Part shown: piece after piece, positions 1 through 35,575 of the stretch | How positions within the stretch are numbered: position 1 is the stretch's first letter | Layout: the number at the start of each line of letters is the position of its first letter | Notes under the pieces: model-generated | The model's input: only the letters and a program-made list of their open reading frames with translations | Told to the model about the DNA's origin: nothing | Databases searched by the model: none | Position numbers and translations under genes: made by a program | Source: a virus | IMG/VR virus record: IMGVR_UViG_3300037481_000188 | Span: 1 to 35,575 of that record | DNA: 35,575 bases | Strand: one strand, 5' to 3'

Positions 1-127
1 CATAAAGAATCTCTTGATTTACTTGATAAATGCTACTACTATTACTCCGATGCTAATTGGACAAACAGAGATGGCAAAAAAGTCAAGGACTGGAAACGAA
101 CTATAAAAACAAACTGGTTCGGTAAAA
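1..127. repeat. Terminal direct repeat, copy 1 (circularisation overlap)
   Basis: Bases 1-127 are identical to 35449-35575. The length equals a k-mer size commonly used by short-read assemblers, and the repeat cuts through the middle of a coding gene. It is therefore most simply an assembly overlap of a circular or circularly permuted molecule, not a biological terminal repeat. Unique genome length would be 35,448 bp. Confidence 0.93.
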
Positions 128-207
128 ACAAAAAAGAGGCCTCCACATTTATTCCGGCCGAAAGTAGGTCAATCAGAGTTCACGAATCTTACCAAACAAA
201 CCTATGA
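1..207 (+). CDS. Replication protein, C-terminal part (gene continues from 35026-35575)
   Basis: This is the 3' end of a gene whose 5' end lies at the other edge of the window. The reading frame is open from base 1 and stops with TGA at 205-207. Joined through the 127-base terminal repeat, the protein carries an aromatic and basic C-terminal domain (YYYYSDANW, then KDWKRTIKTNWF). That pattern is typical of the C-terminal domain of phage replication initiators and helicase loaders of the DnaT/O type, which contact the replicative helicase. The stop overlaps the DnaB start (ATGA), so the two are probably translationally coupled. The helicase-loader role is inferred from the domain pattern and from the adjacent helicase. 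Confidence 0.75.
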   Translation, partial: HKESLDLLDKCYYYYSDANWTNRDGKKVKDWKRTIKTNWFGKNKKEASTFIPAESRSIRVHESYQTNL

Positions 208-18207: not shown

Positions 18208-20406
18208 TTAAAACAGAGTTAATTGAGATTTAAGACTTACAGCTGATTTGATGTTTGCTTTTGCTAAATCAAAATAGCTTTCTTTCAATTCAAACCCTAT
18301 GCCTTTCCTTTCCATTTTAACAGCTTGAAAAACCTCGCTACCAATCCCCATGAATGGAGTAAAAACAGTATCTCCTTTATTCGAATATAAATGAATCAAT
18401 CTCTCAATTGTATCAAGTTGAAGTGGGCATATATGTTTTTCATCATTATCTTCTCTGCCATTCCTATATCCTTGCAATGTGTTTCCATAGTTAATATCCA
18501 TCCATACAGGGGATGCGTATTTCTGCCATAAATCAACTGATAACTCAGTATTATTAACTGGGTTTTCTCTTTCCCCATCTTTTCTAAAGACCATTACATA
18601 ATCAGGGATGCCTACTCTGCTCATTGTTGAGTCCTTCTTAATTTGTTTATGAAGTAATCCGAGAGCCTTAGTCCTTTGCATTTCAACTACTGGATCTTTC
18701 CATATTGTTATCCTGCTGTGATAAATAAATCCAGCATCTTGAAAAGCAGAAAGAATCATTCCTGAAAAGTCACGAAGGCCAATAAAACCTTCTTTGCCTT
18801 TTTGAATTGGTAAGTCCATGCAATGAACAGCCACATTTCTGCCTGACATTGTTATTCTATATAATTCCTTGATAAGAAATCCGAATTGAGTAAGAAACTC
18901 ATTATAGTCTTTTGAATTTCCCATATCCTCAATATGGTTTGAATATGTATAAAGTTCAGCAAATGGAGGGCTAAATACAGAAAGACCAACTGATTCATCA
19001 GGTACAGATTGAATTAGTTGTACAGAATCACCTCTCTTGATTTGATACCATTCTGTATTTTCTGATTCAGTATCAAATACGGATTCAGATATAAAACTAT
19101 TATTTAAGTTTTCATTTATGGCTTTGCTCATTTCTTCTTGCATGGTTAAAAATTGTTTTTGTTTTAAGTCTATTGCTGTTTTAACATTTGCCATTGTATC
19201 AGTAGTGATAAGGTAAATGTTTACTTCATTCTTTTGCCCAAATCTATAAGACCTTCTGATGGACTGATATAATCCTTCAAAGCTAAAATCTAATGAAGCA
19301 AATACCTGGTTTCGGCAATTCTGATAGTTCATTCCAAATGATGCAATCTTTGTCTTAGTTATTAAGACTCTAAATTCATTATTGGCAAATCCTATAAGTT
19401 TAGACTTTTTCCATTCATTTGAATCAGACCCTGAAACCTCAATGGCATCCGGAATAAGTTTTTTCAAAAGTTCGCCTTCCTCATTCTGTTTTATCCAAAT
19501 AATAAAGTTTTCATCTGAATCATTCACAATCTTAGCAACTTGATCAAGCCTTTCAACTTTAGTAATTCTAAGTTCATGATTAAAGTTAGTAGCTGAAATT
19601 ATAGCATCATTGAATATGCGACCATTCTCTCTTTTAGGGGTTTTAATTTCTTTTTCAATAAGATTCAATGAAGGCAAGGAATATCCATCCATCTGAAAAC
19701 CTATATCCTGTGGCTTATTAAGCATAATAGCCCATGAGCCAATAAACTGATAAAACATTTTAACAGCATGTCCTTTTAGCCTCCATTTGGCTGTCTCGCC
19801 TCCATCATGAACAAAGTACATTGCAAGCATTTCATTTCTGCTCATTATATCTAAAAACTCAGAATGGTTACCAAGCTCCATTGGATCATTTGGAGATGGT
19901 GTTGCTGTGCATGCTAATTTATATGGAGTCTTAGCAAATGATTCTAAAATTAGCTTTTTAGTAGCACCTTCAAAATTTTTCAATATTGAACTCTCATCCA
20001 ATAGAACTCCTGAATAAATAGAACAGTCTATATTGTCTAGTTGCTCATAATTTTGAACATCTATATTAATCAAAGGAATGTTGAAATTAGATGCTTCATT
20101 AATGGTCTGTTCTACAACAGCAAGAGGAGCAAGTATGAGTACCTTTCCATTTGTTCGCATTGTTACTTGATATGCCCATTCAAGCTGCATGAATGTTTTA
20201 CCAAGGCCACAGTCAGCAAAAACAGCGTACTTTCCAGCCTTTAATGCTCGCTTTACTATAAATCGCTGAAATGTGAAAAGTAAAGGATTTAATTCTGACT
20301 CATCAATCTCAAAGCCTGAATTGATATGTTTTTTTTGTTTTTGATTTAAAAAATCAAGGTAGGCATCTACATCAATAGATGATTTTGTTTGGTTATCTTT
20401 TTTCAT
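18208..20406 (-). CDS. SNF2-family helicase / DNA methyltransferase fusion
   Basis: A 732-residue two-part enzyme. The N-terminal SNF2-type ATPase has Walker A ADCGLGKT (64-71), the DEAD-box equivalent LLDESS (about 135-140), TATPSPNDP, and motif VI SIRRSYRFGQKN (about 382-393). The C-terminal DNA methyltransferase has SPPF (479-482) as motif IV and TPFMGIGS (about 683-690) as the SAM-binding motif I. Motif IV before motif I indicates the beta class, N4-cytosine or N6-adenine. It would methylate phage DNA, most simply as protection against restriction, with the ATPase moving along DNA. The leader contains TCTAACCAAC just before ATG. Alone on its transcript. Confidence 0.9.
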   Translation of the reverse strand: MKKDNQTKSSIDVDAYLDFLNQKQKKHINSGFEIDESELNPLLFTFQRFIVKRALKAGKYAVFADCGLGKTFMQLEWAYQVTMRTNGKVLILAPLAVVEQTINEASNFNIPLINIDVQNYEQLDNIDCSIYSGVLLDESSILKNFEGATKKLILESFAKTPYKLACTATPSPNDPMELGNHSEFLDIMSRNEMLAMYFVHDGGETAKWRLKGHAVKMFYQFIGSWAIMLNKPQDIGFQMDGYSLPSLNLIEKEIKTPKRENGRIFNDAIISATNFNHELRITKVERLDQVAKIVNDSDENFIIWIKQNEEGELLKKLIPDAIEVSGSDSNEWKKSKLIGFANNEFRVLITKTKIASFGMNYQNCRNQVFASLDFSFEGLYQSIRRSYRFGQKNEVNIYLITTDTMANVKTAIDLKQKQFLTMQEEMSKAINENLNNSFISESVFDTESENTEWYQIKRGDSVQLIQSVPDESVGLSVFSPPFAELYTYSNHIEDMGNSKDYNEFLTQFGFLIKELYRITMSGRNVAVHCMDLPIQKGKEGFIGLRDFSGMILSAFQDAGFIYHSRITIWKDPVVEMQRTKALGLLHKQIKKDSTMSRVGIPDYVMVFRKDGERENPVNNTELSVDLWQKYASPVWMDINYGNTLQGYRNGREDNDEKHICPLQLDTIERLIHLYSNKGDTVFTPFMGIGSEVFQAVKMERKGIGFELKESYFDLAKANIKSAVSLKSQLTLF

Positions 20407-34386: not shown

Positions 34387-34697
34387 AAAACGACTTCAGC
34401 AAGTTCACCTGCTTTGTTCGGGGCATAATTGAGACAGGATTTGTCATTAAGCATTCTGACAAGGCTCTAAGGCATGATGTCAAGCTTCACTTCAATAGGC
34501 TGCTTCATCACTCTGTTGAGTTTGAGAAGTTCCTGCACCAGCAACTTGGGCAAGACATGGCAGAGGCAGAAGATACAATCAACAGTTCAATCATTAATCT
34601 TGTTTGGCAGATATTTGACATGGAGGAGGATGAGGTTAATAGGTTCATTGAATACATCAATAATTTTGATGACCATGAAAGACAAAAAAATAATTGA
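34383..34697 (+). CDS. Hypothetical 104-aa protein
   Basis: A 104-residue helical, acidic protein. ATG at 34383 overlaps the previous stop and is preferred to the earlier in-frame ATG at 34371. The first half is basic and histidine-containing (LHFNRLLHHSVEFEKFLHQQL), the second acidic (DMEEDEVNRFIEYINN). No family recognised. Confidence 0.72.
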   Translation: MKNDFSKFTCFVRGIIETGFVIKHSDKALRHDVKLHFNRLLHHSVEFEKFLHQQLGQDMAEAEDTINSSIINLVWQIFDMEEDEVNRFIEYINNFDDHERQKNN

Positions 34698-34884
34698 GGT
34701 TTTTAAAGCCACTACTCGTGAAGTAGAAAAGGCTAAGACTGGGAAGACTTGTCAAATGTGTTCAGATGGAGGCAAGAAAAAGCACACCATGAATGATTGG
34801 GTTTGTGGCAGATGTCACATTGTAAGAACTGCCTACAATAAAAGTTTAAAAGGAGAAGTTGCCATAGTGTATAAACTTTTTTAG
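34669..34884 (+). CDS. Small zinc-ribbon-like protein, 71 aa
   Basis: A 71-residue protein with two CxxC pairs (CQMC and CGRC) and flanking basic residues (GGKKKH), the usual form of a small zinc ribbon. ATG at 34669 or 34675 is likely; the longer upstream frame overlaps the preceding gene and looks non-coding. Might bind nucleic acid. It ends just inside the promoter of the replication leader. Confidence 0.7.
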   Translation: MTMKDKKIIEVFKATTREVEKAKTGKTCQMCSDGGKKKHTMNDWVCGRCHIVRTAYNKSLKGEVAIVYKLF

Positions 34885-34889
34885 ATTTG
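34858..34889 (+). promoter_or_regulatory. Promoter of the replication operon
   Basis: GTTG (34858-34861), a 20-base spacer and TAGATTTG (34882-34889), an exact -7 box. A transcript would start near 34896 and carry about 130 bases of structured leader before the replication gene. Confidence 0.6.
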
Positions 34890-34933
34890 CATGTCGAAAG
34901 ACCCCGATTGAGACCCGGGATAAATAAAGAGCA

Positions 34934-35029
34934 ATGAAAAATATTAAAGCCCCATTCGGTCAGTACTTAGCAGCCTTACTCTTGGCTGGTCTCACTAAGG
35001 AAAACCGGATGGGGTTTTTTGTTTTATGA
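34934..35029 (+). CDS. Possible leader peptide, 31 aa
   Basis: A 31-codon frame starting MKNIKAPFGQYLAALLLAGL and ending MGFFVL. It is leucine- and alanine-rich and its stop overlaps the replication gene ATG (ATGA). The reading frame runs through the terminator-like hairpin, so translating ribosomes would open that hairpin. It may be a true leader peptide or chance. Confidence 0.4.
   Translation: MKNIKAPFGQYLAALLLAGLTKENRMGFFVL
34946..35020 (+). terminator. Terminator-like hairpin in the replication leader (possible attenuator)
   Basis: CCCCATTCGGT (34950-34960) pairs with ACCGGATGGGG (35004-35014), one G-T pair. It extends by AAAG/TTTT to about 15 bp and is followed by a T run. Inner stems CTTAG/CTAAG and CAGCC/GGCTG fill the loop. 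An upstream segment can pair with parts of this hairpin instead (see findings). Confidence 0.75.
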
Positions 35030-35575
35030 AAAAGTCATTTTTAATTCATCTTGATAGCCTTGAGATTTTAGATGAGCTAACTGATGAGCAAATTGGCAAA
35101 TTGCTTAAAGCATTTCGTTCATATCATTTAGGTTTAGAGCCTAAACTTGACCAAATTTTAAGGATAGCTTTTAAGCCATTTCAATTACAATTTGATAGAG
35201 ATTCTGAAAAATATAAAGAAACATCAGATCGTAACTCATTGAATGGCAGTAAAGGAGGTAGACCTAAAAAGCAAAAAAACCCAGTCGCTTTTTTGGGTTT
35301 AGATGAAAACCAACCTAAAGCGAAAAAAGCCGATAGTGATAATGATAGTGATAATGATAATGATAATGTAAATGATAGTGTTAAAAAGAAAATTATAAAA
35401 GAGTTTATTGCTCCATCTTTTGAAGAAGTTAAAGCTTACTTTCTTGAGCATAAAGAATCTCTTGATTTACTTGATAAATGCTACTACTATTACTCCGATG
35501 CTAATTGGACAAACAGAGATGGCAAAAAAGTCAAGGACTGGAAACGAACTATAAAAACAAACTGGTTCGGTAAAA
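35026..35575 (+). CDS. Replication protein, N-terminal part (DUF6291-like; continues at 1-207)
   Basis: The start ATG is at 35026; the frame is open to the window end and continues at base 1. The N-terminal domain (MKKSFLIHLDSLEILDELTD, then IGKLLKAF, FKPFQLQFDRDSEKY, NGSKGGRPKKQ) has the DUF6291 pattern of phage replication-associated proteins. A low-complexity Asp-Asn linker coded by GATAAT/GATAGT repeats (35332-35382) leads to the C-terminal domain seen at 1-207. Full protein is about 250 residues. It is followed by the helicase and probably loads it. Confidence 0.85.
   Translation, partial: MKKSFLIHLDSLEILDELTDEQIGKLLKAFRSYHLGLEPKLDQILRIAFKPFQLQFDRDSEKYKETSDRNSLNGSKGGRPKKQKNPVAFLGLDENQPKAKKADSDNDSDNDNDNVNDSVKKKIIKEFIAPSFEEVKAYFLEHKESLDLLDKCYYYYSDANWTNRDGKKVKDWKRTIKTNWFGK
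35449..35575. repeat. Terminal direct repeat, copy 2
   Basis: Identical to bases 1-127; see the first copy. It lies within the replication gene. Confidence 0.93.

Follow-up and report, generated by a model that had tools for sequence, protein, structure and literature searches.

A pseudoknot serves as the switch of repZ/repA in IncI-complex plasmids, and the loop–loop partners of the phi29 pRNA, the HK022 put antiterminator RNAs and the RNAs of type III toxin–antitoxin systems are further points of comparison for the RNA described here. In the leaders of IncI-complex plasmids, a short reading frame (repY/repB) is described as lying at the initiator gene (repZ/repA), whose expression needs translation of that frame (PMC10286972). 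The IsrK/orf45/anrP locus of Gifsy-1 is described as a phage leader that bears a terminator, yields RNAs of short and long form and has an upstream open reading frame (ORF) translationally coupled to the next gene, and premature termination ahead of replication genes is described for the P4 CI RNA and seqA–seqC (PMC4825925). HMP-PP (thiS) riboswitches are described as holding a pseudoknotted aptamer within a terminator stem, sometimes in tandem arrangements (PMC6478431), and the motifs of Weinberg et al. (2010) as covarying RNAs found by comparison, some of them in phages (manA, wcaG and c4; PMC2864571). The locus analysed below resembles, or is predicted to resemble, the systems of these papers in the traits just named.

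The window, by which we mean the whole stretch of DNA that was analysed, is a virus record of 35575 nt. An exact 127-nt repeat is present at its two ends (1–127 and 35449–35575), and the record is cut within the replication gene. A Terminase_3-type terminase and a DnaB helicase are also encoded in the window, and the host group is presumably of Bacteroidetes type, judged only by the type of promoter. At 18208–20406 on the minus strand we observed a gene for a 732-aa protein that, by reading, joins a helicase to a DNA methyltransferase. The DNA ahead of the replication gene almost certainly encodes a structured RNA of ~125 nt next to a promoter, in which three hairpins (P1, P2 and P3) and two loop pairings (PK1 and PK2), predicted from an alignment of relatives, are mutually compatible. 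The features are as follows.

34859–34889, + strand: Bacteroidetes-type promoter, with TTG at 34859–34861 and the −7 box TAGATTTG at 34882–34889.
34893–34902, + strand: P1, GUC-GAAA-GAC, a hairpin of 3 bp where the RNA is expected to begin; paired in 100% of cells across 65 relatives.
34903–34919, + strand: P2, a hairpin CCCG/CGGG with the loop AUUGAGACC; 99.6% paired, with both sides changed in 3 of 4 pairs.
34909–34914, + strand: PK1, 5′ strand UGAGAC in the P2 loop (partner 34989–34994); 100% paired in 65 relatives.
34927–34933, + strand: PK2, 5′ strand just 5′ of the leader AUG (partner 34977–34983 in the end loop of P3).
34934–35029, + strand: 31-codon leader ORF spanning P3, with a TGA that overlaps the downstream ATG (35026).
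34948–35016, + strand: P3, the putative terminator hairpin, made of P3a (34948–34960/35004–35016), P3b (34966–34970/34995–34999) and P3c (34971–34975/34984–34988).
34961–34965, + strand: 5′ side (CAGUA) of a conserved internal loop, opposite GAAA at 35000–35003; read from alignments.
34989–34994, + strand: PK1, 3′ strand GUCUCA, which is the bulge of P3; identified by covariation.
35015–35020, + strand: terminator U run, with the gene ATG (35026) 5 nt on.
35026–35575, then on via the 127-nt end repeat into window 1–207, + strand: replication gene encoding a DUF6291 protein (Pfam PF19808, E 9e-22).

An earlier annotation made from the letters of the window, here called the sequence-only reading, had noted an exact promoter box, and both the TTG and the −7 box are indeed present. 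The window + strand holds three TAGATTTG-type sites, the leader's included. With the numbering T−12 to G−5 of PMC6847099, transcription is expected to start near 34894. TAnnTTTG, described as the promoter type of Bacteroidetes (PMC6847099), was found upstream in 59 of 65 relatives; a caveat for the window promoter is that G at −10 is described in the same source as nearly absent from promoters of F. johnsoniae. The middle pair of P1 varies among the relatives (GC in 37, UA in 15 and CG in 13). We also observed P1 without the remainder of the RNA, in the order TAnnTTTG, GNC-GAAA-GNC hairpin, A-rich leader and ATG (L216:1139, L218, L229, L238, L240, L244 and L246), and such phages may use this hairpin generally at mRNA 5′ ends. 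On the other side of the promoter, positions 34675–34884 encode a 69-aa protein that reads as zinc-ribbon-like, having two CxxC pairs; its gene ends at the promoter of the RNA.

Relatives were collected by two routes. The replication protein, used as a query, returned 33 loci, nine of which held leader-like DNA, and 75 stretches of viral contigs matched a pattern drawn from the hairpin's 3′ arm, with more from further patterns. Once copies cut off by contig ends (L069, L074, L090, L099, L050 and L147) and 16 sets of exact duplicates, many of them a single contig represented twice, had been removed, the aligned set comprised 65 distinct leaders of viral contigs, here called type A. Because the 3′-arm pattern itself specifies some of the P3a 3′ arm and the U run, their conservation is in part built in by the search; the pattern leaves P1, P2, PK1, PK2, P3b and P3c free.

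The alignment bore out the fold. Standard pairs occupied 97.4% of 2778 cells over 43 pairs, 23 of which had changed on both sides (415 cells), and the covariation score was 0.422, compared with 0.139 ± 0.006 for shuffled alignments and at most 0.078 for slid versions of the model. In a structure-blind covariation scan of 5261 column pairs, ranks 1–16 all belonged to the model. On a FastTree tree we counted 98 compensatory double changes (12 in P1, 8 in P2, 16 in PK1, 31 in PK2, 8 in P3a, 19 in P3b and 4 in P3c). Both sides had changed in 4 of the 6 PK1 pairs and in all 7 PK2 pairs. PK2 was paired in 85.2% of cells, with another 47 changes to or from the unpaired state on the tree; its last two pairs are weak (unpaired in 14 and 36 of the 65), and in the window itself six of the seven form, C34932–A34978 being unpaired. 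PK2 begins 5–8 nt 5′ of the leader AUG in 64 of 64 sequences.

P3 was paired in 99.2% (P3a), 100% (P3b) and 100% (P3c) of cells in the relatives, with the PK1 bulge splitting P3b from P3c on the 3′ side. The internal loop CAGUA/GAAA is one that we take to resemble the sarcin–ricin/loop-E motif. As in intrinsic terminators, a GC-rich hairpin is followed by a U run; the first T run was 4–8 long in 65 of 65 relatives, partly by construction as the search pattern demanded five T. The next gene's ATG lies 3–6 nt past this run in 63 of 65, which leaves no room for another promoter. The minimum free energy of 34896–35025 was −43 kcal/mol, compared with −28.8 ± 3.8 for 200 shuffles, one of which was as good (z = −3.7). 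The hairpin was missing from a simple terminator scan, which accepts loops of 3–8 nt only. The sequence-only reading had already pointed to a strong hairpin and T run before the replication gene (arms 34946–34960/35004–35018), and the compensatory arm changes that it had asked of relatives were found in P3a, P3b and P3c; P1, P2, PK2, the compensatory changes themselves and the family of relatives are additions to it.

The 31-codon frame that the same reading had seen over the hairpin, ending at the start of the replication gene, is likewise present and is kept open in relatives. A leader ATG was found in 64 of 65 (absent from L045). The frame was open through P3 in 64 of 64 for frame 0, compared with 49 for frame 1 and 24 for frame 2, whereas shuffles that keep the pairs predict 38%. 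The P3 sequences form 12 clusters when grouped at 85% identity and 6 when grouped at 80%, and the independent evidence for an open frame is therefore smaller than 64. In two groups (L092/L108/L078 and L039/L057/L066) P3 is read wholly or partly in another frame, yet it is open. The peptide thus changes while the frame remains open, so that selection appears, from these comparisons, to act on the passage of ribosomes through the leader frame, with the peptide free to vary. A leader that senses a peptide or amino acids, of the trp type or with stalling peptides, was rejected, as we found no conserved peptide or test codons.

As in translation-coupled leaders, the type A frame is open up to the next start and stops at it. 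In 35 of 64 the stop codon shares bases with the gene ATG, and in 27 it falls 4–61 nt inside the gene; in L078 it is 16 nt 5′ of the gene, and the remaining sequence, L061, is truncated. Among more distant relatives the frame was open in 6 of 7, the exception being L207 with an early stop. The leader ORF is not universal, L045 and L053 being without an AUG. A at −3, described as a positive factor in Flavobacterium, was found at the leader AUG in just 9 of 64, and structure around the start codon is described as reducing initiation there (PMC6847099).

A diverged form, type B, occupies the same site in close relatives of the window. It has the same promoter and P1, a 5-bp P2 with an 8-nt loop pairing into P3, and a U run; an ATG was read in the linker of only some rows. 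For type B with its close forms (24 sequences, 22 distinct), 95.8% of 616 cells were paired, both sides had changed in 12 of 28 pairs, and the covariation score was 0.246, compared with 0.095 when shuffled. Of 31 loci retrieved with DnaB as the query, 22 carry type A or B 5′ of dnaB; the remaining nine hold at most 818 nt upstream. In the close relatives L184 and L178, both flanks were 86–90% identical to the window and the RNA was of type B; between the flanks, the promoter/P1 stretch was the sole match of L184 to the window, and L178 had none. Conversely, the RNA of L182 was 97% identical to that of the window, with different genes on both sides. We also noted that the genes flanking the RNA in the window (34677–34880 and 35040–35400) are exchanged among close relatives with the RNA and outer flanks retained, a recombination hot spot.

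The promoter+P1 pattern gave 83 distinct segments, 21 of which scored as type A and 16 as type B. By reading, the same plan was found in more than 20 others, comprising further type A forms and about six more types; types C–H were grouped by eye, and the alignment counts cover only A, and B with close forms. In the rest, P1 precedes a plain A-rich leader or the match is due to chance. Across 22 records the pattern occurred once in 14 and twice, in tandem, in 2, and was absent from 6. The tandem RNAs are of different types, ~366 nt apart, with a gene behind each (L228:7392 and 7757; L234:4311 and 4678). Over 127 sites with an ORF, some of them P1-only or chance, the first gene behind the RNA fell into ~30 clusters, among them replication initiators, small unknown proteins and an HNH endonuclease.

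We found no match to this RNA family in the RNA catalogue, phage records and papers searched. No Rfam 15 family reached its gathering score in the window, the best weak match of the element being 21.9 bits against a cut-off of 65. Phage records gave no match to two type A queries, nor to type C or D. A type B match in seven E. coli phage records, a 40-nt terminator stretch at 85% identity (E 3e-3), was taken as chance. The 29 exact-pattern matches in bacterial genome contigs were without the P3 5′ arm by reading. In 395 Bacteroidota genomes an RNA-model search gave weak matches in 15, the best 8 of which proved to be ordinary terminators that lack PK1 and have no proper P1/P2, and the promoter+P1 pattern gave none. 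Literature searches for such an RNA returned analogues and no description.

What the RNA does we infer from sequence comparison. On balance we think it probable that it is a premature terminator acting in cis at the head of an operon of replication and accessory genes, coupled in type A to translation of the leader. The position, stem and U run of P3 favour premature termination, and in type A the frame kept open suggests that P3 is traversed by ribosomes. While the fold is closed, PK2 would cover the region of the leader start, P3 would stop transcription in most cases, and the gene's own start, which is weak and U-rich, would see little use. A ribosome loading first on the leader would unfold P3 and deliver ribosomes to the overlapping gene start, and one close behind the polymerase may also suppress termination; what the type A leader would sense is thus the passing of a ribosome rather than a peptide or any test codons. 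Ribosomes are described as able to repress terminators, and terminators as working efficiently in E. coli when they lie within 100 bp of the start of a coding region (PMC4824070). The terminator here lies ~80–90 nt into the leader, so that translation may act too late for termination and perhaps serves to couple translation only.

We more tentatively suggest, and would not rate it as the likelier outcome, that these RNAs form a modular phage class (A and B well supported, about six more by reading) consisting of a promoter, a 5′ GNRA-type hairpin, a second hairpin with a loop pairing into a terminator hairpin, and a gene, with types swapped like cassettes where the replication operon begins and sometimes placed in tandem. 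Type A, with its open frame through the knot and its free peptide, would then be a ribosome-gated pseudoknot terminator, signalled by ribosome passage itself, that times replication genes.

Other explanations fit part of these data. The RNA could be mainly a stable small RNA gene that acts in trans, on host factors or other phages, with the downstream genes reached by leaky read-through. We regard this as unlikely, although it suits the compact pseudoknotted fold that runs from the promoter on, through a small stable P1, to a terminator end, as it does the single, tandem or missing copies in the 22 records, the exchange of allelic types among close relatives and the precedent of IsrK, described as a phage RNA of Gifsy-1 with short and read-through forms (PMC4825925). 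A co-directional gene lies right behind the RNA, however, and the type A ORF is maintained through it, which trans action would not need; elsewhere in the window the PK1 words occur as scattered extra copies only.

Less likely again is a riboswitch, or an attenuator that binds a protein, in which the fold inside the terminator recognizes the ligand. HMP-PP riboswitches are described as having such an architecture, tandem copies included (PMC6478431), and the AGUA/GAA internal loop is conserved in types A and B. By reading, however, other types lack this motif or carry something else in its place (for example, L225, L237 and L239), which argues against a common pocket; no competitor pairing covaried among the 45 strongest column pairs of the structure-blind scan, and the downstream genes are diverse. 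We consider it improbable that the RNA is a 5′ element for stability and translation control, with a non-terminating P3 and a pseudoknot that adjusts how the leader and gene are translated, in the manner of IncI repY/repZ. The overlap of the leader frame with the replication gene recalls the leader translation that the initiator of I-complex plasmids is described as needing (PMC10286972), and other contigs have P1 by itself at the head of ordinary A-rich leaders, but in types A and B a long GC-rich stem leads directly into U runs; types C and G have an interrupted tract that is still U-rich.

The sequence-only reading had proposed that ACCCC (34901–34905) with GGGGT (35011–35015), and GAGACC (34910–34915) with GGTCTC (34988–34993), compete with the terminator, which is very doubtful even though all four words and both complementarities occur in the window: the first pairing did not covary (73.8% paired, 73.5% when shuffled), and the second is PK1, which covaries in the same sequences as P3 and, by joining the hairpin bulge, is compatible with it. 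The structure-blind scan gave no competing pairing among its 45 strongest column pairs, and a classical antiterminator attenuator was rejected for want of a conserved pairing that excludes the terminator. The broader proposal of attenuation of the replication operon thus retains its conserved structured leader, promoter-proximal terminator hairpin and kept-open frame, and loses its mutually exclusive pairings.

Should the cis-acting terminator prove correct, it would represent a large unrecorded family of RNA control elements heading replication genes in phages of Bacteroidetes-type hosts, and a rare case of selection for an open frame through a structured terminator regardless of the peptide. 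It would make the onset of replication, and transcription–translation coupling in such hosts, testable with a 150-nt cassette, and would be a source of natural pseudoknotted terminators of several types.

The IncI, IsrK/P4 and HMP-PP systems introduced at the outset also differ from the window RNA. IncI-complex plasmids use an antisense RNA and are not known to use a terminator there, whereas the window RNA has a putative terminator stem, two different loop pairings, no known antisense RNA and a free peptide; membership of the repY/repZ group was rejected, the window gene encoding a DUF6291 protein and not a homologous initiator. IsrK and the P4 RNA have a different structure and have been shown to pair in trans, whereas the complementary strands of the window RNA pair within one molecule. 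In the description of the HMP-PP riboswitch (PMC6478431) the pseudoknot disrupts the stem; in the window RNA the pairings add to an intact stem, and the loops covary without conservation of their sequence.
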